Made by a program: the position numbers and the translations under genes. Shown piece by piece: positions 5,323 to 47,291 of a DNA stretch of 64,000 nt. Position 1 is the first letter of the stretch. Each line of letters begins with the position of its first letter. The stretch is from a virus: positions 1 through 64,000 of the IMG/VR virus record IMGVR_UViG_3300047550_002546; one strand, written 5' to 3'. The notes under the pieces are model-generated. The model searched no databases, had not been told where the DNA came from, and was given only the letters and a program-made list of their open reading frames with translations.

Positions 5323-5922
5323 ATGGCTGACGTGAGTTCAATCCAAGTCAACATCGACGAGCACTACAAGCAATGCGTGATGGCGTTACAGCAGATCGCA
5401 CAACTCGCGGATACGGGAAGCAAAGCCCACAAGGAACGATTCTGCCCGAACGCAGAAGGCGATGGAATCGCCAATGGATGGCGCGTCGCTGAGGCGATGC
5501 GAGAGATCGCAAACGATGTTGTCGGTAGCATCAGCCTGCCTCGATCATTGTTTTGCGTGTACGACCGTGTTCGAGTGAAAGCCGGTCGCGATGCTGGCCA
5601 TTACGGGACAGTCACGCACGTCGGAGGGGATGACGGAACTTACTACGGCGTGAAACTGGACTGCCACGACAAGGAAATCGGATACAGCGAGTATGAATTG
5701 GAATATGCGAGGCTGGATGAACCAGCATGGGTGACGCGATTCGCAAAAGGAAATGCTGCGACCAGTCCGTTCACCGCAAAGGAAATCGCCGATCAGGTTC
5801 GAGAAATGCTGGTGTATAAGCGGGCTATGGAGTCGATGGCGCGTCAGTTCATTCATCCGAAAATGACGGCAATTGAGATGGCGGAAATGCAATTACGAGA
5901 CAGCGGTACAGGCGAGGGTTGA
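5323..5922 (+). CDS. KOW-like domain protein (199 aa)
   Basis: The middle (about 77-130) reads YDRVRVKAGRDAGHYGTVTHV followed by YYGVKLD and YELEYA: a KOW/SH3-like barrel with the Gly-x-Gly turn used by ribosomal and NusG-type factors to hold RNA or protein. Helical segments lie on both sides. A role with host ribosomes or polymerase is inference. It is the first gene after dyad copy 2. Confidence 0.75.
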   Translation: MADVSSIQVNIDEHYKQCVMALQQIAQLADTGSKAHKERFCPNAEGDGIANGWRVAEAMREIANDVVGSISLPRSLFCVYDRVRVKAGRDAGHYGTVTHVGGDDGTYYGVKLDCHDKEIGYSEYELEYARLDEPAWVTRFAKGNAATSPFTAKEIADQVREMLVYKRAMESMARQFIHPKMTAIEMAEMQLRDSGTGEG

Positions 5923-7476: not shown

Positions 7477-7594
7477 GCCAGAAGTTTTCCATCGCAGATT
7501 GCTGGATCGCGAAATACCGTGCCGCGCCTGTTTGGTCTCGCCATGCCAACCATTCGATGCACCATTCCTCGTACTGGTAATCCAGTGTCGTCAC
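7445..7594 (-). CDS. Small hypothetical protein (49 aa, GTG start)
   Basis: The GTG at 7594 overlaps the stop of the upstream gene (GTGA). The protein is Trp-rich (EEWCIEWLAWRDQTG). The reading overlaps the start of the ATP-grasp gene. No family recognised. Confidence 0.55.
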   Translation of the reverse strand: MTTLDYQYEEWCIEWLAWRDQTGAARYFAIQQSAMENFWHGPEHDDTLA

Positions 7595-23827: not shown

Positions 23828-24336
23828 CGAATCCGTATTGTTCGGCCACTGATGTCACGACGTATATCGGTTCATGTGCGATGCCGCAGGTGACAACCGG
23901 CGATCCGACATCCGTGACCACGGACACCGCATTCATCGCCTACGCAATCAACGCTGCCGACGCAGAAATCGATTCGCATCTGGTTCATCAATACGATTTA
24001 GAAGTTACCCATGCACTGCATCCTGACTGGCTGCGACACACCAGTGCCATCATCGCGGCGGTCTGGATCTTTCGCAGCGGCCAGAACGGGACCATTCCGC
24101 CGGGCCTTCAGGCGTGGTTTGACGAGCGCATGCAGGCGTTGCAGTCGATCGGAGAAGGGAAACGGCAGATTCCGGGCGTCAACGTGAAAGCAGATCCGGG
24201 GGTTTCGATGTCGAACCTCCGCCACGATCAGCGACCAGCCGACAAGAAGATCAGAACAATGCCTTGGCTCAACACCGGGGATCAGAACAGCACACAAGTC
24301 CGTAGCATCGACCTCAATCCACCGTTTGCACTATGA
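23824..24336 (+). CDS. Head-tail joining protein (Mu gp36/DUF1320-like)
   Basis: The start 'NPYCSATDVTTYIG' and the helices after it (AFIAYAINAADAEIDSHL, WLRHTSAIIAAVWIFR) match the gp36/DUF1320 connector family. GTG 23824 overlaps the stop before it. 170 residues. Confidence 0.75.
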   Translation: MTNPYCSATDVTTYIGSCAMPQVTTGDPTSVTTDTAFIAYAINAADAEIDSHLVHQYDLEVTHALHPDWLRHTSAIIAAVWIFRSGQNGTIPPGLQAWFDERMQALQSIGEGKRQIPGVNVKADPGVSMSNLRHDQRPADKKIRTMPWLNTGDQNSTQVRSIDLNPPFAL

Positions 24337-24896
24337 GTCAGTTAGCACTACGCGCCGCGATCAGAGACGCAATCAGGACGGAATACAGCCTGAAGGATTG
24401 CCAGTGCATGGTCATGGATGCCGACGGACAGCCTCCGCAGAGTGCATCGCCACTGTTCGTTGCCGTGCATCCGGGGGCTTGGCGGCGAGCATCGCAGTGG
24501 AAAGGCGGTCCGCTGTTTGATGAGGAACTCGGATTCCGGGTAACAGTCAGTGTCCAGAACTCTGGGGTTCAGCCTCAGAATTATGGGGAATGGTATCTGC
24601 AAAACGCAGTGCCACTTGGAACATGCGGGGCCGGTCTGGAGTCGTTTTGCCGTGCCATTGCGGTGTTCCTGCATGACAACGACAGCATTATGTGCGGACT
24701 CGAAACGGCGACGGGAAACGAAGGCCAGTATTCCGGCGGTGTTTTTTTTCAAGACGGCGGGATGGCAGTTGAAAGAACTGCGGATTGGTGGAGAAGTAAT
24801 CCCGCCAGCAAGACCAGTAACCCACCGATCGGATTGTCTCAGACGATGACGTTTGACGGTGTAAGACGAACTCAGTTATCAGGAACGGCGACATGA
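24333..24896 (+). CDS. Tail-completion protein, copy 1 (187 aa)
   Basis: Directly after the connector gene, in the place of Mu gp37/tail-terminator proteins. Its sequence (VAVHPGAWRRASQWKGGPLFDEE, CGAGLESFCRAIAVFLHDN, GLSQTMTFDG) recurs, clearly related, as the last 190 residues of the repeat fibre at 30508-32757. Ring-forming tail terminator is the working idea. Confidence 0.7.
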   Translation: MSQLALRAAIRDAIRTEYSLKDCQCMVMDADGQPPQSASPLFVAVHPGAWRRASQWKGGPLFDEELGFRVTVSVQNSGVQPQNYGEWYLQNAVPLGTCGAGLESFCRAIAVFLHDNDSIMCGLETATGNEGQYSGGVFFQDGGMAVERTADWWRSNPASKTSNPPIGLSQTMTFDGVRRTQLSGTAT

Positions 24897-25236: not shown

Positions 25237-25728
25237 ATGGGTCTTGCCGCTACGTTTCAGTCCGGACGATATTCCGGGACGTGGAATTCATCCTCGCTGG
25301 GGGTGATTTCTGATGCTTTTCGAATTCGCCAGACGATGGAAGCCCAGCAGGTCCGCGCCGACTTCTGGGGTGACTCCGTCATTGATCTCGTCTACCGTGG
25401 CGGGAATGCGTTTTGCGTGTTCGAGGGATTGAGTTGGACATCAGTTGCCGCTGTTGTCGGTGGAGCCACCGCTATCGGAACGATGGGCATCGCCAACGTC
25501 GGTTGCTTGTTCAGTAAAGCGGCCTTGTCAAAGGCACTTGTCCTCACCGCAGTTGGAGCCGGAGATTGTGCGCCAGCCCCGACGTCGATCACCGCTGCTG
25601 CCGCGAATCTCGCCGAAGGATTCGACGTCGAGTATGCACTGGCGAATCAGTTGCGAACGCTGCCGATCATGATGCGTTTGCTGCCGACGCTGATTAGCTC
25701 TGAAGTCTACTGGTATGTGATGGCCTGA
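25237..25728 (+). CDS. Probable tail tube protein (163 aa)
   Basis: AAGGAA precedes the ATG. Begins GLAATFQSGRYSGTWNSSSLGVI, beta-rich, with Gly/Ala-rich middle and a helical/loop end, as in short major tail proteins. Position after head-completion genes and before fibres supports this. The family is not certain. Confidence 0.6.
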   Translation: MGLAATFQSGRYSGTWNSSSLGVISDAFRIRQTMEAQQVRADFWGDSVIDLVYRGGNAFCVFEGLSWTSVAAVVGGATAIGTMGIANVGCLFSKAALSKALVLTAVGAGDCAPAPTSITAAAANLAEGFDVEYALANQLRTLPIMMRLLPTLISSEVYWYVMA

Positions 25729-30507: not shown

Positions 30508-32757
30508 GTGCTCCAGTTCTATCTTATCCGCGTTTCGACGCCGATCCCGATCTCGATTTCGGGGTCGGCGTCTCAATCTTGGTCTGACTCCGGCACGCTG
30601 ACTGGTGGCGGCGTTGTCTCTGCTGATGCATCGCAATCATGGTCAGGCTCTGGTGACGCAGTTGGTTCTGGTGTTGGTTCTGGCGATGCGTCCGAATCGT
30701 GGTCAGCAACCGGAACAGTCGAATCCGGTGTTGTTATCGTTGGTTCCGCCAGTCAGTCGTGGACGGATTCCGGGGCAATCACCGGATTTGGTGTCGTCGC
30801 GTCATCAGCATCGGAATCATGGGGGGCGAATGAAGCACTCATTGGCGGGGCAGTCATCTCTGTCTCCGCGTCGCAGACTTGGACTGACGCGGGTGACGCT
30901 ACGGCTGGTGCCGTCATAACCGGCGATGCGTCAGAGTCGTGGGCTGGGTCAGGGTCGGTCGTTGCGTGTGGCCTCATTGTTGGTTCTGCAAATGATGCGT
31001 GGTCAGCAAGCGGGGATCTTCAGTCAGGTGTGGTCCTGTCTGGTTCCATGCTCGAATCGTGGTCCGCGTCCGGAGATGCGACGGGCGCGGGGGTAGCTTC
31101 TGGGGCGGCGTCGCAGACTTGGTCCGGTTCCGGAACCCTGATTTCTGGTGTCGCCATGAGCGGCACGGCATCCGAATCATGGACAGGTTCAGGAACTTTG
31201 TTCGCGACTGCGATCGTGTCCGGCGCTGCATCGGAATCGTGGTTGCCCTCTGGTGTTCTAGTGGCGGGGTTTCCAGTTTCCGGAGATGCCTCACAGTCAT
31301 GGACGGCAGCAGGATCAATTGTTGGCTCCGGTGTCGTTTCAGGCTCCGGATCTCAGTCCTTCACGGCAACCGGGGCGATTACTGGATACGGTCTGGTCTC
31401 AGGGTCCGCTAGTCAGGGATGGCAGGAGTCGGCCACGCTTGGGGCGACGGCTTTTGTGTCCGGCGCGGCGTCTCAGGCGTGGAGTGACTCTGGATCGATC
31501 ATGGCTGAAGCTCCGGTTTCCGGCGATATGTCTCAGGCGTGGGCAGCGTCAGGAGATTGTGTTGGAGTCGCTCCGGTATTGGGGGCGGCTTCTCAGTCCT
31601 ATGATATCGGAGCAGCATCGGCGATCGGTGTCGGGATCGTATCCGGATCGGCGGATGAGTCGTGGACGGTCGATTCCACGTTCTATGCTTCTGCGGTCGT
31701 TTCTGGGGCGGCAAGTGAATCGTGGGATGCAGCGGGAACCCTGTTTGCCGTGGCTCCCATTTCCGGGGACGCTTCTCAGTCATGGTCCGGGACCGGCTCG
31801 CCATTCGGTGCCGCTGTCGTCGCGGGGTCAGCTTCGCAGGCATGGGACACCACGGGAGACATCTTCGCGTCGGCTTTTGTCTCCGGTTCAGCCGAAGAGA
31901 CATGGACGGCATCTGGTGTTCCGACCGTTGTCGGCGTCGTGTCTGGATCTGCTGTTCAGACTTGGTCTGATTCTGGCAGCATCACAGGCTCCGCGTCAAT
32001 TTCCGGTGACGCATCGGAATCGTGGTCGATCTCCGCCGTGTTCTACGGAACGGCAGTTGTTTCGGCATCATGCACGGAGACATGGGCGACAACCGGCGCG
32101 ACAGTCGCAATCGGATTTGCATCTGGATCTGCCGAGGAACAGTGGCAGGCTTCCGGGCTGCTGATTCAGACCGTCGATGACGCCCCGGAACTGTCCAAGA
32201 ATCCTTCGCAGGCCATTCTAAGGGCACTTGTTCGTGATGCGATCATTGACCATTTCGGACTGTCTGAGTGCCAATGCGGCATCAACTTCAACGGACAGCC
32301 GCACCCGAACTCAGGCCCAGTCTATATCAGTGTGCATCCGGGAAAATGGCGACGAATCAGGAGATGGCGAAAAGGCCCGCTTTTGGATGAAGAATTCGGC
32401 TTCCAAGTCACCATCACCGTCAAGAACTCCGCAGTCCAGCCGAAGTTTTACGGGGAATGGTTTATGCAAAAGACAGCGGCGCTGAATTCCTGCGGAGCCG
32501 GTCTTGAATCTCTGTCCCGTGCGATCGCGGTCTACTTGCACGACAACGGCTCCATTATTTGTGAACTCGCCAAAAGAGCATCCGGACTGTCGCATTTCTC
32601 TGGTGGGATCTTCTGGGAGAACGGAAGCGTGCCGAAACAGAGAAGGGCGAAGTGGTGGCTCTGCCCGTATCAGACAGGAAACCCGTCTATTGGATTGTCT
32701 CAGACGTTGGTGTTTGGGGGACTGCGGCGGAGCCAGCCGACTGCGGATCGGTCGTAA
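30508..32757 (+). CDS. Repeat fibre fused to a second tail-completion domain (749 aa)
   Basis: GTG 30508. Residues about 15-555 are 27 tandem 20-residue repeats with the core [Q/E]-[S/T/A]-W-x-x-[S/T]-G followed by GxxVVSGxAS. The last 190 residues match the protein at 24333 (VHPGKWRRIRRWRKGPLLDEE, CGAGLESLSRAIAVYLHDN, GLSQTLVFGG). The repeats would form a long beta structure; the end domain could anchor it. Last gene of this + block. Confidence 0.8.
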   Translation: MLQFYLIRVSTPIPISISGSASQSWSDSGTLTGGGVVSADASQSWSGSGDAVGSGVGSGDASESWSATGTVESGVVIVGSASQSWTDSGAITGFGVVASSASESWGANEALIGGAVISVSASQTWTDAGDATAGAVITGDASESWAGSGSVVACGLIVGSANDAWSASGDLQSGVVLSGSMLESWSASGDATGAGVASGAASQTWSGSGTLISGVAMSGTASESWTGSGTLFATAIVSGAASESWLPSGVLVAGFPVSGDASQSWTAAGSIVGSGVVSGSGSQSFTATGAITGYGLVSGSASQGWQESATLGATAFVSGAASQAWSDSGSIMAEAPVSGDMSQAWAASGDCVGVAPVLGAASQSYDIGAASAIGVGIVSGSADESWTVDSTFYASAVVSGAASESWDAAGTLFAVAPISGDASQSWSGTGSPFGAAVVAGSASQAWDTTGDIFASAFVSGSAEETWTASGVPTVVGVVSGSAVQTWSDSGSITGSASISGDASESWSISAVFYGTAVVSASCTETWATTGATVAIGFASGSAEEQWQASGLLIQTVDDAPELSKNPSQAILRALVRDAIIDHFGLSECQCGINFNGQPHPNSGPVYISVHPGKWRRIRRWRKGPLLDEEFGFQVTITVKNSAVQPKFYGEWFMQKTAALNSCGAGLESLSRAIAVYLHDNGSIICELAKRASGLSHFSGGIFWENGSVPKQRRAKWWLCPYQTGNPSIGLSQTLVFGGLRRSQPTADRS
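30555..32160 (+). repeat. 27 tandem ~60-bp coding repeats
   Basis: Each unit encodes about 20 residues centred on S-x-S/T-W-x-x-S/T-G. Amino-acid conservation is higher than DNA identity, so the units are old and kept by selection on protein. Confidence 0.85.
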
Positions 32758-32761
32758 ACAG

Positions 32762-33448
32762 TCAATCCGAAGCTGGCTCAAACGCCCTCATGACTGATGG
32801 CTTTGAGTTTACATCGATATTCCGACGGAGCCACTGAACAATATGACGCCCAACACCCATGTTGGAGTTTGGGTCGCGATCCATTTCCATGTCTTTTATC
32901 ACTTTCGAAGACCGAATCGTGACTTTCCCGAAGAAAAACGACAGCATTGCCACGGATGCGCCGAGTTCCCATAGCGACTGATGCGACCATCCGCGAGAAA
33001 ATGAGTCTCTGTCGAAGGTATAAACACCATCGGACCTTCTGACTGCCATAGGGCAGTATCTCATTCGTGATCGCAGTTGTTTGATTGCCGACTTCAATTC
33101 CGCCTCTGTAGTGGTGTGACCTTCGTCGTCTTGCGGCAGATCTTTTTCGTTGCTCACGGCAGGTTTTTTACTCAACTCCAGATCTCTCGTCAGATTCTGG
33201 ATCAATTGATTCAAACGCCTATTTTCAGAGAGAGCGTCTTCCAGTTTCAGTTCCGCAGAGGCGGCGCGGCTTGTCGCGACTGCCTTGAGTTCAACGGCCT
33301 CCAGTTCGCGTTCTTCCGAGGACGACAGTCGCGTGCGAATCACGTTCACTGCATCCTTCAGTTTGCGAAGTTTATCAAGGCCAACCGTGTCTCTCCCAAG
33401 ATACGCAGCAAACTCTTCGAATTGTTTCTTCACCTGAGAAATGCTCAT
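32762..33448 (-). CDS. Coiled-coil protein paired with ParB-like gene (228 aa)
   Basis: ATG 33448 overlaps the ParB-like stop. The first 110 residues are charged helices (LDKLRKLKDAVNVIRTRL, ENRRLNQLIQNLTRDLEL); the end is globular (FSRGWSHQSLWELGASVAMLSFFFG). It runs against the surrounding tail genes. Function unknown. Confidence 0.65.
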   Translation of the reverse strand: MSISQVKKQFEEFAAYLGRDTVGLDKLRKLKDAVNVIRTRLSSSEERELEAVELKAVATSRAASAELKLEDALSENRRLNQLIQNLTRDLELSKKPAVSNEKDLPQDDEGHTTTEAELKSAIKQLRSRMRYCPMAVRRSDGVYTFDRDSFSRGWSHQSLWELGASVAMLSFFFGKVTIRSSKVIKDMEMDRDPNSNMGVGRHIVQWLRRNIDVNSKPSVMRAFEPASD

Positions 33449-34452
33449 TTTTGACTCCACATATCCGCTGGGACGCGGGCTTCTTGCGGCTTCTTGTTTG
33501 GGGCGATTGATTTCAGTTGCTTGGTGATGTCGGAAATGATCCTGAAAAACTCATCGACGTTTGGCACTCGATCTCCTCGCGTGATGATGCTGTCTAGGAC
33601 GGTTTGCGCTGTTTTTAGCGTCTTTAGCAGCACCACATCCTTGGGTAATTCCGTAGACTGCCGTCCGGTCACTCTTGATCGGATTTCCGGATCGTCGTGA
33701 ACAAGTTTAAGCCTCGACACATACGTTGCGTGTGGGTTTGACGATTTCGGGAGCGGAGAGAAAAAGTCGGAAATATAAGGAGCGGCGTCTGTCGCTGATA
33801 TTCTTGACTTCTTGATCGTTTGCAGAAAGCCAACGACCGGCTCCATCGCCTGCTCAATCACAGACGATCCGTGAATGTATGGCCGTAACTCCGCCAGCAT
33901 TGCGTCGGGAAGCTCCGGGCCTCCAACCAGACTGATTCGAGACTGAAGCTCTACCGCCTCCGCGATTCGCTTTACATCCGCAACTTTCCACCCGCCAATC
34001 TGGGCTACTTCAGCGGGACTCATCTTGCGATCAACGACGAGAACTTCCACTGCCCTGCGTCGCGTCCACTCCGCAGGCTCTGCACGTCCCTGCATTCTCG
34101 CATTGGCGAGAACCCTGATCATCGCCAACGCATCCTGAGAGTCGGTTTGAACGACATACGCGGAGACTCGCGTTATCTGGTTGAGTTCTGCGGCGGAAAG
34201 TCGCTGAACCCCATCAAGCACGCGAAGACCGACCTCGGATCGATACAAAATAGGGGCAGGCGCCGCAGATCCAGCATCCATCAGGGTTGCGTATTCGATA
34301 ACAGCATCTTCACGCACAGCAATCGGGCGACCAATGTTCTCTGAGTTCCATCCCGGAGCAAACTCAGTCGGCAGCATCAGCCCGTTGACATACTCGTATT
34401 TGACGCCGATCGACGTCAGGAAATTTTCCGTTCTACTGTCCGTTGTAAACAT
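33445..34452 (-). CDS. ParB/Srx-domain protein (335 aa)
   Basis: Residues about 45-130 follow the ParB amino domain: GRPIAVREDAVIEYATLM, APILYRSEVGLRVLDGVQRLSAAEL (the substrate/nucleotide loop, GVQRL for the usual G-E-R-R or GyHRl), then VSAYVV. Next comes an HTH-like region (MSPAEVAQIGGWKVADVKRIAEAV) similar to the ParB DNA reader. It could partition DNA or regulate genes. It is a candidate reader of the genome's dyads as well. Confidence 0.75.
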   Translation of the reverse strand: MFTTDSRTENFLTSIGVKYEYVNGLMLPTEFAPGWNSENIGRPIAVREDAVIEYATLMDAGSAAPAPILYRSEVGLRVLDGVQRLSAAELNQITRVSAYVVQTDSQDALAMIRVLANARMQGRAEPAEWTRRRAVEVLVVDRKMSPAEVAQIGGWKVADVKRIAEAVELQSRISLVGGPELPDAMLAELRPYIHGSSVIEQAMEPVVGFLQTIKKSRISATDAAPYISDFFSPLPKSSNPHATYVSRLKLVHDDPEIRSRVTGRQSTELPKDVVLLKTLKTAQTVLDSIITRGDRVPNVDEFFRIISDITKQLKSIAPNKKPQEARVPADMWSQK

Positions 34453-34698: not shown

Positions 34699-36375
34699 AT
34701 GGCTAGACCATATGCTTTTGACGACGAAGACGAAGATTTCACGCAGTCCCAGCAGTCAGACGGGGACGCCGCGCTCAAGCCAATGGACATCCAGAAGCCT
34801 CGCGGTTTTGACGATGTCCGCGCCGGAGCCAATTCAGAGTTCCGGGCTTTCGGCGAATCCGCCAAAAAGCTGACCACCGCAGCAGATGCGATAAAGTCGG
34901 CAGTCGAATCCCTCAAGTCCGGGATTGAAGATGCGTTGAGTGATAAGGCTGGACTCCCGTCTGTCAAAACCGACACCACAGGGGCCACGCTGGACGATGT
35001 TGTCGACGCCATCAAAAACATCAAGCTGACCCCCGCTGATGACAAGTTCGACGGTCCGAAGTCATTGAAGCCAGACAGATCGGAACCGAAACTCCAGCAA
35101 GCGCAGACGCCACGCCCGGTCCCGATTCAGCCAAAAGAATTCCAGACTCCCGGATTGAAGCCGGTCGAGTCTCGCGAGTTCACTGGACCTGAATTGGTGA
35201 AGATGCAGTCGCGAGAGTTCACCGGGCCAAAACTGGCCGAAAAGGCTCCTGCCGAGAGAATTCCATTTCCGGAAAACACAAAGTCTGAACCAAAAGAATA
35301 CAAGGCGAAAGAGCCGCAGTTCGAGTCACACGGGCTGATTCCCGGACACGAAACGCAGGATCGGGTTAATGTCAAAGCCAAGTCGGGAGAATTCATTGTC
35401 CGCCCGGAAGCCGTTAAAGCGATCGGCGTCCGTCGGCTTGAGGAAATGAACAGCCTCAAGCAAAAGCCGCCTGAATTTCATGCCCGTGGCGGGATTGTTG
35501 GCAAGGACCGATCTCCGGAAGCATTCAAATCCCCGGACCGACAGCCGAAAGCCTACTCAGTGGGTGGTGCCGTCAAGTGGGTTGGCGGCGCATTCGCTGG
35601 TGTTGGCAAGCAGGCGTTTGAAAACACCGTCAACAAGGGGAAGGAGTATCTCGATAACGTCAAGGATGCGCAAAAGAGCAGCAAGGGGGATTTCAGTGGC
35701 GCGTTGTCAGTTGCCGCTACAGCACTGGGGCCGTTTGTGTCCGTTGGCGCAAAGGCGGCACTGGCGATCGGGAAGATATCCACAAACGCTGAGGAAGCCG
35801 CGAAGAGGCTGGGCAAGTTCAACGCAGGGATTGCCACAGCAAACGCCAAGGCAAACTATCGGCAGATCACCAGTGATGTGCAGCGAGCGGACTTCCTGTC
35901 TCCGCAACTGTCGCGATTCACTGATGTCAACTCGAAACTCAGCCAGAGCGGCCAGAATCTTGAAGCCCTGTTTTTGAAGTTCGGATTGCGGGCCGTCGTC
36001 CCAATCCTCGAAGCCATGCAGAAGGGTATCGAAACCTATGGCGGCGGCATTTCCGAGCACATCGCCAAGATGCTGGAAGGAATGGCCGCAATCGTCGAAG
36101 TCTTGGGCGGACTCCCCGCAATCGGCGGGTCGGCAACAGACGCAGCCAAAATGCTGGATGCAATGGCGGGCGATATCCGTGAGATGAACTTCCGTGGCAA
36201 GAACCCAGACATCAAGGGCGGCATGGACAAGTTCATGAAGGAGTTTCTTGGCGGACACGGCATGGACGACTCCAAGGATGCTTGGGGCGGACCGGCTGGT
36301 GGCGCCAATCAATTCCGTGTGGTCTCAGAAGATGACAACGCTGCGATTCGCGATTTAGCGAACAGGAGTTTCTGA
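34699..36375 (+). CDS. Tail tape-measure protein (558 aa)
   Basis: The middle has VNVKAKSGEFIVRPEAVKAIGVRRLEEMN, the motif (PGEFVVxxxAVxxxGxxxLxxMN) found in tape-measure and related tail proteins. Long helical and Ala/Gly-rich segments follow (GALSVAATALGPFVSVGAKAALAIG). The Pro/Lys-rich amino part holds imperfect repeats (SREFTGPEL/SREFTGPKL). 558 residues would suit a short to medium tail. Confidence 0.75.
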   Translation: MARPYAFDDEDEDFTQSQQSDGDAALKPMDIQKPRGFDDVRAGANSEFRAFGESAKKLTTAADAIKSAVESLKSGIEDALSDKAGLPSVKTDTTGATLDDVVDAIKNIKLTPADDKFDGPKSLKPDRSEPKLQQAQTPRPVPIQPKEFQTPGLKPVESREFTGPELVKMQSREFTGPKLAEKAPAERIPFPENTKSEPKEYKAKEPQFESHGLIPGHETQDRVNVKAKSGEFIVRPEAVKAIGVRRLEEMNSLKQKPPEFHARGGIVGKDRSPEAFKSPDRQPKAYSVGGAVKWVGGAFAGVGKQAFENTVNKGKEYLDNVKDAQKSSKGDFSGALSVAATALGPFVSVGAKAALAIGKISTNAEEAAKRLGKFNAGIATANAKANYRQITSDVQRADFLSPQLSRFTDVNSKLSQSGQNLEALFLKFGLRAVVPILEAMQKGIETYGGGISEHIAKMLEGMAAIVEVLGGLPAIGGSATDAAKMLDAMAGDIREMNFRGKNPDIKGGMDKFMKEFLGGHGMDDSKDAWGGPAGGANQFRVVSEDDNAAIRDLANRSF

Positions 36376-36376
36376 G

Positions 36377-38143
36377 ATGGCATCCCTCCCCGGCGTAGGA
36401 ACGATCTCATACAACGGCTTCGCCTTCGATGGCCCGATGGTATCGTCTCGCGCGTCGATTGAGAATGTTCGCGGGGACGATGATCGTGCGGTGATCTTCA
36501 GTGAAATCTCAGTTGAAGTCCACGCCACGATCGACTTGGAGAACTGCGGCATCCTTCAGGGCGATCTTCCCGATGGCTATATGTCCACGATCGACGATAT
36601 CGTGCGAGCACTCTCGCAGGACGGCAAGGCGTTTGTATTCACCGACAAGATATTTGAGAGACTGGCCGTCAATACCGGAGAAACCGGCGATTATGTCGAC
36701 GTCAACTACGGGCCAAGAGTCAAGGTCGTCTCTCTGGTTCCCGTTGTCGCAAATCGCGTGTTTGAGATCGTTTGGACAGCAAGAGTCTCTGTCGCGAAGT
36801 GCCCCGGAACCGATGTGATCCTGAGTGAAGGTGCTGTTCGGCAGTTCGTTTACGGCTGTCAGTGGAGCGGAGACAGTCGGGGCTATAGCACTCGCACGGT
36901 TTCCGGCTTCATCGAAATCGTCTCCGTTCCAGCGATGAGCGACGACCAGATCACGATCAGTGCGGATGACTACCGCGAGAAACTGACAGTAGCCATGCCG
37001 GAGGGCTATCGTCGAGTCCAAAATCATTGGCAACTCGAACCAAACAAAAGCCGAATTAACTTCGCCATCACCGACGAAGAAATCCCAAGCCCCAATGCGT
37101 ACCCGCCGGATGTTGTCGATATCGAGATCAGCCATCAGGTCAGCGTCGGACAATCCACCGCATTTTCGCAGGCCGTGTCAATTCTCAGTGGTCATTGCGA
37201 GGTAGCCAACGGTTTCACGTCGTCGGATGCTTGGGAGCGAGTCTTCCCGATTATTTCGGCACGAATTCAGCGGGCGAGAACTAACGTCGGCGCCATCATG
37301 CTGCTGGATATCTCGGTCACGGAATACCTGTATTCGCGGCGCATCGCATTCCAGATCACGTATCAGAAACTTGGGACGTCACCTTCCGGATTTATCAAGT
37401 CGTCGGGCCTGTTCTCTGCAACGGACGACACATGGAGCGAATACCGGGCTTCGATGTACGGTCCGGATGAAAACACGAACGATACCGATTTGCCGTGGTC
37501 ACGACGGTCAATGTCGAATCTGTCGTTCGAACCATCCGATGACAAGATTGTGACTCCATGCACCGAGCAGCCATTTGATGTTCTGGTTCACAACCAGAGA
37601 CTGACTCCGTTTTCAAATCCGTTGCAAAGCGTACTGTCGAACACCTGCCCGCCGCGAAACAAGAGTTACTCCATCTACGAGAGCCGTATGAAAACGGAGA
37701 CAGCCAGCGGGGCCACTTCCGTCTACGAAATGCCGACAGAATCAACGTCTTTCACGCCAGAATCCGCGAAAACAACAGATGGAGCCACAATTTCAGCCGG
37801 TCTTGACGCTGGTGAACAGCGGATTCGCACGTTTGACGCATCCGCAGTGTCACCAGACATGACGATGACGCTGATTGGACATGCGGCGAGGCTGGGATAT
37901 CCAGTTGAGATTCCGAAGATTGCGGAAACGTCTGGAATCACAGTGAAGCGAGTCCGTGGTGGCGACAAGATTGAGCAGAAGTCGTTCATGTACATGGGGT
38001 GCCGAATGTATATGGCGAAATGGAATATCAAATACAAGATCACGGAATCGGCGACAGACGCCGCCGCACGAATCGGAAATTCGTTTGATCTGCTGAATCA
38101 GACCACAGACTACCCATCTGGCGGGCAGATGGATGTCGTTTAA
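36377..38143 (+). CDS. Tail structural protein (588 aa)
   Basis: Follows the tape measure by one base. Beta-rich throughout; the start (LPGVGTISYNGFAFDG) looks like an exposed tail or distal-tail domain. No enzyme motif. Position supports tail-tip or baseplate. Confidence 0.65.
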   Translation: MASLPGVGTISYNGFAFDGPMVSSRASIENVRGDDDRAVIFSEISVEVHATIDLENCGILQGDLPDGYMSTIDDIVRALSQDGKAFVFTDKIFERLAVNTGETGDYVDVNYGPRVKVVSLVPVVANRVFEIVWTARVSVAKCPGTDVILSEGAVRQFVYGCQWSGDSRGYSTRTVSGFIEIVSVPAMSDDQITISADDYREKLTVAMPEGYRRVQNHWQLEPNKSRINFAITDEEIPSPNAYPPDVVDIEISHQVSVGQSTAFSQAVSILSGHCEVANGFTSSDAWERVFPIISARIQRARTNVGAIMLLDISVTEYLYSRRIAFQITYQKLGTSPSGFIKSSGLFSATDDTWSEYRASMYGPDENTNDTDLPWSRRSMSNLSFEPSDDKIVTPCTEQPFDVLVHNQRLTPFSNPLQSVLSNTCPPRNKSYSIYESRMKTETASGATSVYEMPTESTSFTPESAKTTDGATISAGLDAGEQRIRTFDASAVSPDMTMTLIGHAARLGYPVEIPKIAETSGITVKRVRGGDKIEQKSFMYMGCRMYMAKWNIKYKITESATDAAARIGNSFDLLNQTTDYPSGGQMDVV

Positions 38144-38160: not shown

Positions 38161-38595
38161 ATGAGTGATGTGATTGATTTCGATGGTGATGAAGTCGTGA
38201 TCCGGGTTCGCGGTGTCGAAAAGACGCTATTCGCCTGCGACGAGATCGACAAGATCCGGGAGAAGATCCGCAAGGCCGACGAGTCGAATCCTCTGCCGCA
38301 GGAACTGGATCAGGAAACCGGGCTGATGGTTCCGGGGACACACGCCAAGGGGCAGGCGTTCGTTGACATCCTGACCACTCACTTCAAGGAAGTCGGGTTG
38401 GATGTCCGCGATAATGTCTCTTATGCAATCTGGAACGCACTGACCAAGAAGGCGGATGAGTACCGCGATTTTTTCGAGAATGGGCGGAGTTCTCCGTCAC
38501 CTTCGGATTCCCCCCGACAGGAGAGTTCCGCCGACGCAAAGCTCAGAGAGCGGCTCTCTACCACGCCCGACGAATCCGCGCCGCAGAACGACTGA
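38161..38595 (+). CDS. Tail assembly chaperone, short form (144 aa)
   Basis: GGGGGAG precedes the ATG. The body is a small acidic alpha/beta domain followed by helices (FVDILTTHFKEVGLDVRDNVS, WNALTKKADEYRDFF); the tail after the slip site is Ser/Pro-rich low-complexity (SSPSPSDSP). It corresponds to the gpG form of the lambda G/GT pair. In this genome it comes after, not before, the tape measure. Confidence 0.75.
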   Translation: MSDVIDFDGDEVVIRVRGVEKTLFACDEIDKIREKIRKADESNPLPQELDQETGLMVPGTHAKGQAFVDILTTHFKEVGLDVRDNVSYAIWNALTKKADEYRDFFENGRSSPSPSDSPRQESSADAKLRERLSTTPDESAPQND

Positions 38596-38711
38596 TAGAG
38601 CTTTATGACCGATGCGCCGACCCGATTGACATGGAAAAAGCCCTGATCATCGAGTCAACAGGTGATGTTGAACGTGCAGAGCGGACATGGAGGAAACGCA
38701 AGGCCGCTGAA
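38161..38711 (+). CDS. Tail assembly chaperone, -1 frameshift long form
   Basis: A -1 shift at 38469-38475 joins the frame ending at 38711. The added part is about 78 residues: EWAEFSVTFGFPPTGEF, RRRKAQRAALYHARRIRAAE, LIELYDRCADPIDMEKALII, then a basic end. It is open from a stop near 38457 with no ATG, GTG or TTG before 38631, yet reads as a well-formed helical protein. This is what lambda GT-type fusions look like. Not proven without protein data. Confidence 0.7.
38469..38475 (+). other. Probable -1 frameshift slip site TTTTTTC
   Basis: In the zero frame the codons are gaT-TTT-TTC, so the site has the classic X-XXY-YYZ form with both tRNAs able to re-pair after slipping back one base. It lies near the end of the folded part of the chaperone. 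Confidence 0.7.
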
Positions 38712-38746
38712 ATGGAGGCAAAGGTCATGAACGAAGGTAAGTAGCC

Positions 38747-39991
38747 ATGAACCAGCAGTTGACATCGCGAGAAATGTACGAAATCAAGTCGATCGGGTAC
38801 ACCCCGCCACCGGGGCATCGCGGTTCGATGATGGACATGGGGCTACCGGGCTTCACGCTGCGACAGGTGGAGCAGATGCGTCGCGATTCCCAAGTCAAAC
38901 TGGGAATGGCGATCAAAACGGCTCCGCTGATGCACGTCAAATTTGAGTGTACCGGACGACCAGACATCGTTCAGTTCGTCACCGGCCAGATGAAATCGAT
39001 ATGGGATGAAGCCATCACCAAGATTTCGTCAGCACTCTGGTACAAGGTCCACGCTTCGGAGCCAGTCTACCGAAAAAACCAGAGCACCGGACTGATGGAA
39101 ATCATCTCGCTGCGGGACTTCTACCCCGGAGACGTCGAATTCTTGGAGCAGTCGCAACAACTGATTGGGCTTCGAATCAGATCCTATCAGGGGTCGAGTG
39201 TCGACAATCCGAACGGCTATTTCGACCTGATGGGAATGAAGGGATTCCACTACATCCATCGGCAGGAATTCGGGGGCCGCAACGGAGTCAGCGAACTGGA
39301 GGCCGCATATCAGCCGTGGCTCGCCAAGGTCGGACCTGACGGCGCAATGGCAGTGAGAACGATGTGGTTTTACAAAAACGCCTACGACAGCGGAATCATC
39401 TTCCATCCCCCCGGAGTCTACGAATACAGAGCGGGCGAGAACATCGTCCAGATTCCGTATCGTGATCTTGCCCGGCAGGCTGTTGAGCGGGCAACATCCG
39501 GGGCGGTTTGGGCCTTCCCGCAATCCTACGACGAAAAGGGGAACCGGATGTGGGAGTTCGTCTCCCCGAAACTGAACGGCGACGGGAAATCCCTGATTGA
39601 TTACGTCGAGCAGTTGAATGTCGAAATTTTGCGCGGCATGGGAATTCCCGACGACATCATCTCACAGACCGGGGGAACCGGAAGCTACGCCGGTCGTTCG
39701 ATCCCGTTCCAAGCCTTCCTGACATCACAGAACGATACAGTCCGCGCCATCTTTCAGGCGATCGAAAAGCAGATTCTTGCCAACTTGGCGATGTGGAACT
39801 TCGGAAGCCGAGATTTTGAATTTCACGATGTTCAAGTCGATCGCGACAAACTTCTGCCATCGGATCAGCCACAACCACCCGCAGGAATGGCTCCGCCGGA
39901 AATGGGCGGAGATCCGTCGCAAGATCCAAACGCGATGGCGGCGGCACAAGCCGGTCAGCCAATGCAACCCGCTCCGGCGGCTGCCGCGTAA
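38747..39991 (+). CDS. Portal protein (Mu gp29/DUF935-like)
   Basis: 414 residues. The pattern GVSELEAAYQPW...WFYKNAYDSGIIFHPPG...YVEQLNVEILRGMGIPDDII...GGTGSYAGRSIPFQAFLTSQND fits portal proteins of the gp29/DUF935 type: the long wing helix and the GTGSYA turn are clear. The end is Pro/Ala-rich (QPMQPAPAAAA). It lies 24.5 kb from the terminase, after the tail genes, an unusual place. Confidence 0.85.
   Translation: MNQQLTSREMYEIKSIGYTPPPGHRGSMMDMGLPGFTLRQVEQMRRDSQVKLGMAIKTAPLMHVKFECTGRPDIVQFVTGQMKSIWDEAITKISSALWYKVHASEPVYRKNQSTGLMEIISLRDFYPGDVEFLEQSQQLIGLRIRSYQGSSVDNPNGYFDLMGMKGFHYIHRQEFGGRNGVSELEAAYQPWLAKVGPDGAMAVRTMWFYKNAYDSGIIFHPPGVYEYRAGENIVQIPYRDLARQAVERATSGAVWAFPQSYDEKGNRMWEFVSPKLNGDGKSLIDYVEQLNVEILRGMGIPDDIISQTGGTGSYAGRSIPFQAFLTSQNDTVRAIFQAIEKQILANLAMWNFGSRDFEFHDVQVDRDKLLPSDQPQPPAGMAPPEMGGDPSQDPNAMAAAQAGQPMQPAPAAAA
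39965..39990 (+). repeat. Direct repeat, left copy (portal gene end)
   Basis: CAACCCGCTCCGGC then GGCTGCCGCGTA. It matches 41473-41501 with one mismatch and a 3-nt insertion, and the two copies flank the 40-41.4 kb cassette. Confidence 0.55.
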
Positions 39992-43668: not shown

Positions 43669-46665
43669 CTATGTACACGCCACAGAGACGAAATCATCGT
43701 ATGTGGCGGGCCATCGACCGATGAACTCTGCGAGCGCCGCCACATCGCCGCTAAAACATGGTCCGCAACTTTCAGAACAACCGCTTCCACTGAACGACCA
43801 GTAAAAACCTGTCGGAGATCCAGCACCAGTTCCATGCCCAATGTAATTGCAGTTTCCAGTGCATGCCGCCGTCGTGCTGCTTGTCGAGCTTCCTGTTGTG
43901 GATGAACCCGTCGTCGAGTTAGTCGTCGAACCAGTCGAGCCTGTAGTCGAACTCGATGTGGTCGAGTTTGTAGTGCTGGATGTGCTAGAAAGCGTGGTGG
44001 TCGACGATGTGCTGGTGGTGGACGGGGTTGTGCTTGACGATGTGCTGCTACTACTAGTTGACGTCGTTGAGCAACTCGTCGTAGTGACCGACAGCGTTGA
44101 TGGAATCAGTCCCTCGAAGTAACCGTCCGTCAGGTCGCATGTCTTGCAGTCGCCCGGCAACGAATCGCCCGACGTGAAAACATTCGTCAGACTCGCTGTG
44201 AGTGACGACACACAATCAGGCATTGCCGACAGCGAATAAACTGCTGTGATGACCCTGCCGTAAGACTCCACCGTGTCGTGTAACGGGCCTCCAACCGATG
44301 TTCTCCACCCAATGGACCACTTCACGACAACCGTGCCTGTGGACATTTCTACGCTTTCACCGGCGGTGAACGTCCACGTATTGTCGCAGTTCCCATTGCC
44401 CTCTGTGACATCATTGAATATCTGGTTTCCGGGGTCATCGCTCGACCATGCACATGGGGCGGTATGTCCCATGTGCCTTGATCGCGTTGCGCTGCTGGTC
44501 CCGTCGCATCTAAGCGTCGGCAATCCACTGACCGTGTAGCAGCATGTTAGGTCGCACGGTGGATCGTAAACATCAGGAACATTGCAGCAGGTGACATACC
44601 GAAAGTCAGATGAGTAGTCTGACGTCAACGGATCAAAGTCCGCAGGGTCAGCGTCTGGCTCACTCAACCAGTCGGAGTTGAGTTCTGTCGGCGAGAACTT
44701 GTAATCGGTCGGGATTGTCGGCCTACCCTCGGTCGCTGTGTAGCAGCCTGAACACCGATTTTCGTCCAACTCCCAAATCGGCGTCCCGCTGGAATAGCCG
44801 ATCTTCCAAATTGCAAATCCGAATCGGGTGCATTCGCATGTTTCAAGACTTCCGTCCTCAAGCCGTCGTCCCGATGAAATAGCCTCCCATCGCCCATTGT
44901 TCCATTTGGCCCAGAATGTTTGGCCGCACTTGATCCTGAATAGATTCCCGACGCACGCGGTTTCCGCAGGCGACCAAACACAAAACGCCTCGCCGTCGAT
45001 TCGCTTGTAGTTTTTCGTGTTAAAGAAATTATTCTCTCGCCAGTCCGCTTGAAGCTCCAGCCGAGCGGCGCGACCAACGTATCCGTCGCGACTTCCCGTG
45101 CAATACTCACTGCCATCAGATGAGACCCTATCCCAGTCAGACAGCGCGACAAATAGACACGGCTCACCCGCTCCCGGCTGCTGGATAATGGGGACAGATT
45201 CCGGCATCAATCGCGGAAGCCTGCGATAAATGTCCGTGCGGATTCCACCGCCAAGATCAGACCAAACAACCTCAGAAATCGACTTTCCGGGAATATACTG
45301 ATTGCCGTCGCCCGCCCAAAACTTAACTCCCGCATAGGTGACGTGCATCGGTGCAAAGTCAAACAGACACCGATAAAGATCCCTTGCTATTTCTTTGGCG
45401 CGAACCAAGCAGTCGGAGTTGTTCGCTGGCTCCGTTTCCGCCACCGACAAGAATCTCGCCGTCATCGTCTCGTAGCGAAAGATTTCGGAGTTTGGATTGA
45501 AATCGGGGCGAATCATTCGCCCGTCGTCTCGACCAGCAGTTCCGCTTGGGTTTTCGTACCAGTCCGCTGCAATCGAGTTGTTCGGAAGTATGGTCCCGTC
45601 TGAAACCTTGACGGCAACGGGATACCATTTACCAAGTCCCCGTAATTCATCGGTGATCTGCGACGCGCCGTATTCAGTTGGGAACCAGACGACGACGTAT
45701 TCCGGCAGAGTGATGTTGCCCCACAGAATCTCATCGTCGGCAACCAGAGAGTCGCCGCCTGTTATTGGATCGCCGCCCCCATCAAGATCTGGCGTAAAAA
45801 CCGGACAGTCGCCGGATGTGTCGACCGTGTACTGGCCGCGATCCGTAGGCCCAGCAGAATATGACGCCCCGCAAAGTGAGTCGGAACCGCCCTGATTCCA
45901 CATCGGCGGATCGCACTCGACTCCACCCACACCTGAGTTGCCAAGTTTACCGAGCCGAATCAGGTAGAAATTGACGACACTGATGTTGTCGTGTACCACT
46001 GCGCAGCCGACACGAGCGACAACATCATTCAAGGCCGACCACGCAGAGACACCCTCGTACCGCAGATTTTCCGGAGTGCTGGCCAAGTCGCTGAGATCGA
46101 AGTCGGCTGGTCGCTTTTCGTAAGCCCCGATGATCGATGCGTCGCACGACCCCCAAAGATCCCGAATAATCTCTTCCCACGTCCACGGGACACCACTGTT
46201 CAGCGTTTCCGTGATGTATCCGTCAGCCGTGCTGCGAGGGACACGACAGTTGTATCGCTTATTGACTCGTTTCCGATTCAGTGCGTACCGGGAGTCAACC
46301 AACTCGACCAAATACAGGGCATCATCGGACTGCGAGGCGCCGGGAGCAATTCGCTCCGCCCGACGGATGTAGATCCCCTCCAGATCGACTGATTCTCCGG
46401 AGCTTCCGGAGCCAAGAACGAGCGTCAACGGTTCCGATGTCGAAAGTAGATTCAGCCGATTGCGAGCCATCAGCACGCATCCGGAACCGTAATCAAACCC
46501 AAGGGAGGTCCGGAACAGATTCGCCTTCCCGGCAAACCGAGACATCGACCAGCCCTGACCAGCCTTTTCAGCGAACGCCTTGATGGCAGATTGCGCCGAA
46601 ATAATCGGCTCGCCACCAAGACTGCCAAATGTATATTCTGCCGCACTGACGGAAGGAACGGTCAT
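43669..46665 (-). CDS. Large Cys-rich appendage protein with Ser/Thr linker (998 aa)
   Basis: The first 600 residues are beta-rich with many Cys (SGDCPVF, CGQTFWAKWNNGRWE). The next part has paired Cys (CCNVPDVYDPPCDLTCCY). Near 870-945 lies a stretch of almost only Ser/Thr (STTSTSSSSTSSS and similar), a mucin-like linker, then a short Cys-rich end (TGNCNYIGHG, CSESCGPCFSG). Such a layout suggests an exported or virion-surface fibre. The adjoining glycosyltransferase could modify the linker; this is inference. Confidence 0.7.
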   Translation of the reverse strand: MTVPSVSAAEYTFGSLGGEPIISAQSAIKAFAEKAGQGWSMSRFAGKANLFRTSLGFDYGSGCVLMARNRLNLLSTSEPLTLVLGSGSSGESVDLEGIYIRRAERIAPGASQSDDALYLVELVDSRYALNRKRVNKRYNCRVPRSTADGYITETLNSGVPWTWEEIIRDLWGSCDASIIGAYEKRPADFDLSDLASTPENLRYEGVSAWSALNDVVARVGCAVVHDNISVVNFYLIRLGKLGNSGVGGVECDPPMWNQGGSDSLCGASYSAGPTDRGQYTVDTSGDCPVFTPDLDGGGDPITGGDSLVADDEILWGNITLPEYVVVWFPTEYGASQITDELRGLGKWYPVAVKVSDGTILPNNSIAADWYENPSGTAGRDDGRMIRPDFNPNSEIFRYETMTARFLSVAETEPANNSDCLVRAKEIARDLYRCLFDFAPMHVTYAGVKFWAGDGNQYIPGKSISEVVWSDLGGGIRTDIYRRLPRLMPESVPIIQQPGAGEPCLFVALSDWDRVSSDGSEYCTGSRDGYVGRAARLELQADWRENNFFNTKNYKRIDGEAFCVWSPAETACVGNLFRIKCGQTFWAKWNNGRWEAISSGRRLEDGSLETCECTRFGFAIWKIGYSSGTPIWELDENRCSGCYTATEGRPTIPTDYKFSPTELNSDWLSEPDADPADFDPLTSDYSSDFRYVTCCNVPDVYDPPCDLTCCYTVSGLPTLRCDGTSSATRSRHMGHTAPCAWSSDDPGNQIFNDVTEGNGNCDNTWTFTAGESVEMSTGTVVVKWSIGWRTSVGGPLHDTVESYGRVITAVYSLSAMPDCVSSLTASLTNVFTSGDSLPGDCKTCDLTDGYFEGLIPSTLSVTTTSCSTTSTSSSSTSSSTTPSTTSTSSTTTLSSTSSTTNSTTSSSTTGSTGSTTNSTTGSSTTGSSTSSTTAACTGNCNYIGHGTGAGSPTGFYWSFSGSGCSESCGPCFSGDVAALAEFIGRWPATYDDFVSVACT

Positions 46666-47291
46666 CTGGACTCCCAAGGAAACTTGCGGATCGGGGATTC
46701 CGGGGGAGGCGGCGGAACGAACCGTGGATAGTCGGGATAATCCCCAAACTTCTTTTCCAGCTTCTCAACCGTCAAATGGTTTTCGTAGGGGCACCACGGA
46801 TAACTCGACCAATCATCCGGATGGTCTTTTGCCAGCCAGTTCGCCACTTTCTGGACGTGCGACCATCGAGCAATCTCTAGTTCCGTGTCCTTTGCTATAA
46901 CCCATGAAGTGAGATCAAGGTCGAAATTGAAGATATGGGTTTCCACGCATGTCAGCGCACAGCCGGAACCGTTGAACGACCGAGAATCCAGCGGTGTTGG
47001 CTTTTCGAATTCTCCCCAAGCATACGCCGGAAGACCGACATCGGGCCGCTTGTATCTTGGTATGCTCGATAGATCGATGATGCGAATCCGGCTGGCGACC
47101 CGCTGGCGTCGGGCCTCCCAGATCGCAAGTTCCGCTGACGGTCTCGACGCCCAGTCCCGAGTCAGTTCAGACTTCAGGATCTGCGATTCCCGGCTGCCGT
47201 CAATGAATACGAGCAACGGTCGTTTCGCGGCGACTTCGTCCACTTGGACGATCGGGGCGAGAAGCAGCAATAGCAGTGCCGCAGAATTCAT
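46662..47291 (-). CDS. Secreted protein (209 aa), first gene of the - unit
   Basis: MNSAALLLLLLAPIVQVDEVAA is a clear signal peptide. The rest is globular with Trp/Cys/Pro (WCPYENHLTVEKLEKKFGDYPDYP) and ends in a Pro run. The ATG lies only four nt from dyad copy 14, leaving no room for a ribosome site. Function unknown. Confidence 0.7.
   Translation of the reverse strand: MNSAALLLLLLAPIVQVDEVAAKRPLLVFIDGSRESQILKSELTRDWASRPSAELAIWEARRQRVASRIRIIDLSSIPRYKRPDVGLPAYAWGEFEKPTPLDSRSFNGSGCALTCVETHIFNFDLDLTSWVIAKDTELEIARWSHVQKVANWLAKDHPDDWSSYPWCPYENHLTVEKLEKKFGDYPDYPRFVPPPPPESPIRKFPWESR

Follow-up and report, generated by a model that had tools for sequence, protein, structure and literature searches.

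Does a short gene in the tail cluster of an uncultured phage encode two proteins, the second reached by a backward shift of one base during translation, and, if so, do the two products serve tail assembly in the manner of the G and GT proteins of phage lambda? The gene lies within a 64,000-nt stretch of viral DNA (IMG/VR record IMGVR_UViG_3300047550_002546), referred to below as the window, in which a first-pass annotation had proposed both from the letters alone. The features discussed are collected in Table 1.

Table 1. Features of the window bearing on the predicted frameshift and its surroundings
Feature	Coordinates	Strand	Remarks
Probable major tail (tube) protein	25237..25728	+	65% to L003:1489-1974
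Probable tape measure protein	34699..36375	+	homologous to a 550-aa protein of L003 (29%, 2.6e-28)
588-aa tail-cluster protein	36377..38143	+	also the adjacent upstream tail gene in relatives, as ORFs of 585-804 codons
Zero-frame gene (G-like)	38161..38595	+	144 aa: 105-residue folded part, then 39-residue Ser/Pro-rich tail
Weak internal Shine-Dalgarno-like sequence AGAAGGCGGA	38447..38456	+	5' of slip site; suggestive only
Slippery heptamer T TTT TTC	38469..38475	+	same in L002, L003, L004, L012
Predicted -1 frame extension (T-like)	38475..38744	+	89 codons + TAG; predicted fusion 194 aa
Candidate stimulatory hairpin	38483..38532	+	13-bp stem, 38483-38495 with 38520-38532, 7 nt 3' of heptamer
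Mu-type portal protein	38747..39991	+	PF06074 5.9e-10; phrog_113 4.3e-13

The slip site and its two reading frames

Checked against the codons of the zero-frame ORF, the heptamer falls in the X XXY YYZ register that had been assigned to it (GAT TTT TTC GAG, codon 103 of the ORF beginning at 38467). The -1 frame is shut 5' of the heptamer by a TGA at 38457-38459, where its opening had been anticipated, and the expectation that it would run for more than 150 nt without a usual start is borne out, the first ATG, GTG or TTG being the ATG at 38631, 171 nt past the frame opening. Only the length had been understated: the frame does not end at 38711 after about 78 residues but is open through 38741 and stops at the TAG at 38742-38744, which gives 89 residues. 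The folded part of the zero-frame protein extends to the slip site, beyond which the chain turns, as first noticed, into the Ser/Pro-rich tail (ENGRSSPSPSDSPRQESSADAK...). The predicted extension reads REWAEFSVTFGFPP...AKVMNEGK, and the junction of the predicted fusion protein is DEYRDFFREWAEF.

Selection on the overlap among close relatives

Conservation of the slip site and of the -1 frame in relatives had been set beforehand as a test of the frameshift. Close relatives came from IMG/VR (L001/L002, L003 and L004), and in L002, L003 and L004 the heptamer TTTTTTC is identical and at the same place; the preceding codon is AGT instead of GAT in L003 and L004, with retention of the final T that forms base 1 of the heptamer. 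The -1 frame is open and conserved, with no stops. Identity to L002/L003/L004 is 60-65% for the -1 extension versus 40-42% for the zero-frame protein, and 60-62% for the portal protein.

The pattern of substitution distinguishes the two frames. In pairs that include the window, the overlap read in the -1 frame gives pS of 0.64-0.72 and pN of 0.18-0.21, and read in the zero frame gives pN of 0.35-0.37, exceeding pS of 0.21-0.26. Because pS is higher than pN in the -1 frame only, selection acts mainly on that frame, with the zero-frame tail largely passive; the substitutions indicate purifying selection on the -1 frame of the overlap and none on the zero frame. Between L003 and L004, a close pair, every change past the zero-frame stop (3/3) falls on a third position of the -1 frame. 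The first half of the extension, REWAEF..FGFPP, does not vary in four loci.

Conservation across distant relatives

More distant members were reached through other genes of the cluster: L008 was found by a search with the upstream tail protein (27% identity), and L010-L012 and L015-L031 by portal searches. Two proteins of L008 are clear homologues of those of the window, the portal at 28% identity (4.7e-41) and the upstream tail protein at 27% (5.5e-38), and L008 shares the gene order. Two scans of genome contigs yielded no relatives, and no match was found among INPHARED phages and PLSDB plasmids searched with the short protein, or among INPHARED phages searched with the extension, the tube protein and the 588-aa protein. 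In all, 19 loci including the window were scrutinised, without separate counting of duplicate contigs or of L027, L029 and L030, whose scores are identical to those of L028.

Each of the 19 loci carries a short gene with a slip heptamer, located between a large (~600-aa) tail protein and the portal, which is the next gene downstream in 19/19. The -1 extensions run to 80-101 codons and end closely upstream of the portal. Arrangement and place in the 15 distant loci are thus as in the window, mostly with other heptamers. TTTTTTC occurs in the window, L002, L003, L004 and L012; AAAAAAA in L008 and L018-L023; AAAAAAC in L024, L026, L028 and L031; GGGAAAC, with a zero-frame stop immediately after it, in L015 and L017; and the looser CAAAAAG in L010. 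The four strict heptamers are rare in frame (17 per 57,315 codons in the long ORFs of these loci), yet 18 of the 19 family members have one at the slip position and the -1 frame is the conserved and purified one in the overlap, which places the site beyond chance.

The extensions are related among themselves. A motif around T-G-D near the C-terminus is common to them, the version in the window being LIIESTGDVERAE. When each group was omitted in turn and an HMM of the remaining extensions was run against all six-frame ORFs of the omitted locus, the -1 ORF was the top match in 13/13 groups, with E between 9.8e-12 and 4.1e-24 in 12. With the clade of the window held out, the -1 ORF came first of 1780 window ORFs at E 0.0036, a value that marks the link of this clade's extension sequence to the rest as weaker, but the portal and tail protein on either side have their clear homologues in L008, in unchanged gene order. 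The zero-frame domain gave no cross-clade profile match, being too diverged.

These loci also bear on other routes by which a second frame might be reached. The extension might be a separate gene, started internally or expressed through reinitiation once the zero frame has terminated, as would suit the window, where the ATG at 38631 is 36 nt past the zero-frame stop, and L012, where stop and ATG overlap. That said, the conserved REWAEF..FGFPP half precedes any start in the window and in L002, and four loci (L020, L021, L026 and L031) have a -1 frame that is open only from the heptamer onwards, with no start for at least 80 nt, so that in these four it can be expressed by a shift only; a separate gene is accordingly very improbable.

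RNA polymerase, rather than the ribosome, might instead slip on a run of T or A, and ten relatives do have a run of at least 8 A at the site. Against this, the window has only six T followed by C, the strict sites all share the tandem X XXY YYZ pattern, and GGGAAAC in L015 and L017 has a longest run of three. The absence of a long run in GGGAAAC makes transcriptional slippage unlikely as a general mechanism, and we give it very little credence.

Since the contig derives from a metagenome, one might also suspect that the two frames are really one ORF, broken by an error in sequencing or assembly or by decay of the gene. The relation between the frames is the same in 19 loci, on many separate contigs and with different heptamers; this conservation rules the suspicion out, and its probability is negligible.

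By sequence comparison, then, the site, its register, an open and purified -1 frame and the arrangement are conserved in 19 loci, and from this we infer that the slip occurs, as well as its efficiency and the role of the pair. Taken together, the heptamer, the conserved -1 frame and the held-out profiles make a programmed -1 frameshift at 38469-38475, as first proposed, near certain.

Possible stimulatory signals

The earlier suggestion to look for a downstream stem led to a divided result. The window does have a 13-bp hairpin 7 nt past the heptamer (-25.8 kcal/mol, z -2.28, with 2/200 shuffles equally good), but it is not conserved, and a search for a conserved stimulatory structure across relatives found none. 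Strong structures are present in certain relatives (L017, L028) and absent in others. On the 5' side, the duplex of AGAAGGCGGA, at -7.2 kcal/mol, lies between the 5% and 10% background quantiles, and upstream Shine-Dalgarno-like sequences exceed background in only some relatives. The slip site gave no Rfam match.

Gene neighbourhood

The gene at 34699-36375 is probably the tape measure, a call that rests on PHROG tape-measure matches within the family: the gene of L024 in the tape-measure slot matches many tape-measure families (best 1.9e-5), and the 550-aa homologue in L003 matches phrog_10030 at 2.3e-4. The tube protein is likewise probable, by position and by weak matches of the tube-slot genes of distant members to phrog_885 (major tail protein) and PF25681 (tail tube); for the putative tube protein itself, AF2 gave an uninformative model (pLDDT 31). 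The location first given for the frameshift gene, after the tape measure, is upheld, one 588-aa tail gene standing between the two. This 588-aa protein is conserved in relatives, yet has no Pfam, PHROG or PDB family match, and PDB profile searches with it and with the short protein gave chance-level matches only.

The slot just before the tape measure commonly serves to find and annotate tail chaperone pairs. In L003, L008, L010, L024, L026 and L031 the tube-like gene adjoins the tape-measure-like gene with none between them, which leaves the usual chaperone slot of relatives vacant; in the window, other inserted genes separate the two. The frameshift pair is thus displaced, and this fits a lambda-type G/GT that has moved. 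In all loci with the tape-measure slot in view, the frameshift gene comes two genes after the tape measure and before the portal.

Several other features of the region deserve mention. The sole portal gene found (38747-39991) is 3' of the tail genes, as it is across the group, and far upstream of it lie terminase (12538), decoration and capsid genes (21370, 22257) and a connector (23824). A two-gene cassette on the minus strand (32762-34452 in the window, 5713-7499 in L003) encodes a protein of 335/353 aa, ParB-like by eye and 73% identical between the two, together with a coiled-coil-like protein. In the window it precedes the tape measure. In L003 it comes immediately ahead of the frameshift gene and has a 28-bp direct repeat on either side (5645-5672, 7552-7579), whereas in L002 and L004 no such cassette precedes that gene; the cassette may be mobile. 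A 1002-aa gene on the minus strand (43669-46677), whose product terminates in a long Ser/Thr-rich stretch, has homologues in L002, L003 and L004 (42-47% identity) on the plus strand right after the portal, and in the window represents a local inversion or relocation. Lastly, 30508-32757 encodes a 749-aa protein with many SGSASQSWSDSG-like repeats and a second copy of a ~184-aa protein that is also encoded at 24333-24896, an unusual fusion of repeat and connector type in which the second copy is 44% to L003.

Identity and likely role of the two products

Neither domain of the frameshift pair has a Pfam or PHROG match, and a scan of 18 members (extension against PHROGs only) gave none either. 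Residues 1-105 were modelled by AF2 at pLDDT 82, and Foldseek with the short-protein model returned nothing significant except one uncharacterised phage protein, A0A6J5RH87 (uncultured Caudovirales phage, BFVD), a 144-aa protein of no assigned function that is 92% identical to the zero-frame product over the 105 residues compared.

In the mechanism that we favour, some ribosomes translating the 38161-38595 gene would slip back one base at T TTT TTC, probably aided by the hairpin downstream, and would then read the -1 frame to the TAG at 38742-38744, yielding the fusion protein alongside the abundant 144-aa product. The most likely role of the short protein, as of lambda gpG in its partnership with gpGT, would be to coat the tape measure protein, and the C-terminal domain of the minority fusion would recruit the tail tube protein. 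If the frameshift is granted, a tail-chaperone role has a high probability, and frameshift and lambda gpG/gpGT-like role taken jointly are likely.

Frameshifts in capsid genes are known in other phages. They count, along with the portal's place next to the pair at every locus and the lack of a fold or family link between the pair and known tail chaperones, towards a reading in which the frameshift is real but the products serve portal, neck or head assembly, as a chaperone or scaffold for the portal or connector, rather than tail-length control. The genes upstream are nevertheless tail genes (tube, tape measure and the ~600-aa tail protein), no other gene fills the usual chaperone slot in relatives, and two products from a -1 shift are a hallmark of tail chaperones (PMC5009743); we consider this reading unlikely. 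There is also a rather small chance that the two conserved products have no kinship with the known tail chaperones and tie the building of the tail to the portal or neck; if true, this would make them assembly factors of a new, frameshift-controlled class, present in a large group of uncultured phages with rearranged late genes.

Comparison with known systems

The model for lambda has G bound to the tape measure and T to the tube protein, at a ratio of 30:1 (PMC5009743, which cites Levin 1993 and Xu 2004, 2013, 2014 for the primary work). As the lambda genes are summarised there, they and the window share a small tail-cluster gene with an X XXY YYZ heptamer near its 3' end, a short product that stops soon after the site, and a -1 extension. 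The pair thus resembles G/GT in its anatomy, with two products from one small tail-cluster gene by a predicted -1 shift, and this part of the original lambda G/GT assignment stands. The rest is less secure, in that no family or fold match accompanies the chaperone label and the position is not canonical. Set against the lambda pair as summarised in the same source, that of the window has no detectable sequence or fold relation, its heptamer is TTTTTTC (with others in relatives), and it lies two genes past the tape measure and before the portal, whereas lambda-type pairs lie between the major tail protein and the tape measure.

Chaperone pairs of actinobacteriophages (e.g. Omega gp32/gp33, PMC3706429) are, like the pair in the window, two-product frameshift genes in a late cluster. 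The canonical order there is portal, protease, capsid, connectors, major tail, chaperones, tape measure (PMC3706429), whereas here it is capsid, connectors, tube, tape measure, tail protein, frameshift gene, portal. The literature searched, to which most papers in subscription journals did not belong, contained no report of a chaperone pair after the tape measure.

The products form an undescribed protein family, missing from Pfam and PHROGs, and the arrangement is a familiar device, here in a displaced version. This group of uncultured phages has kept the frameshift despite divergence beyond recognition, five heptamers and an altered gene order, which suggests that what selection keeps is two products in a set ratio, and not their sequence or place.
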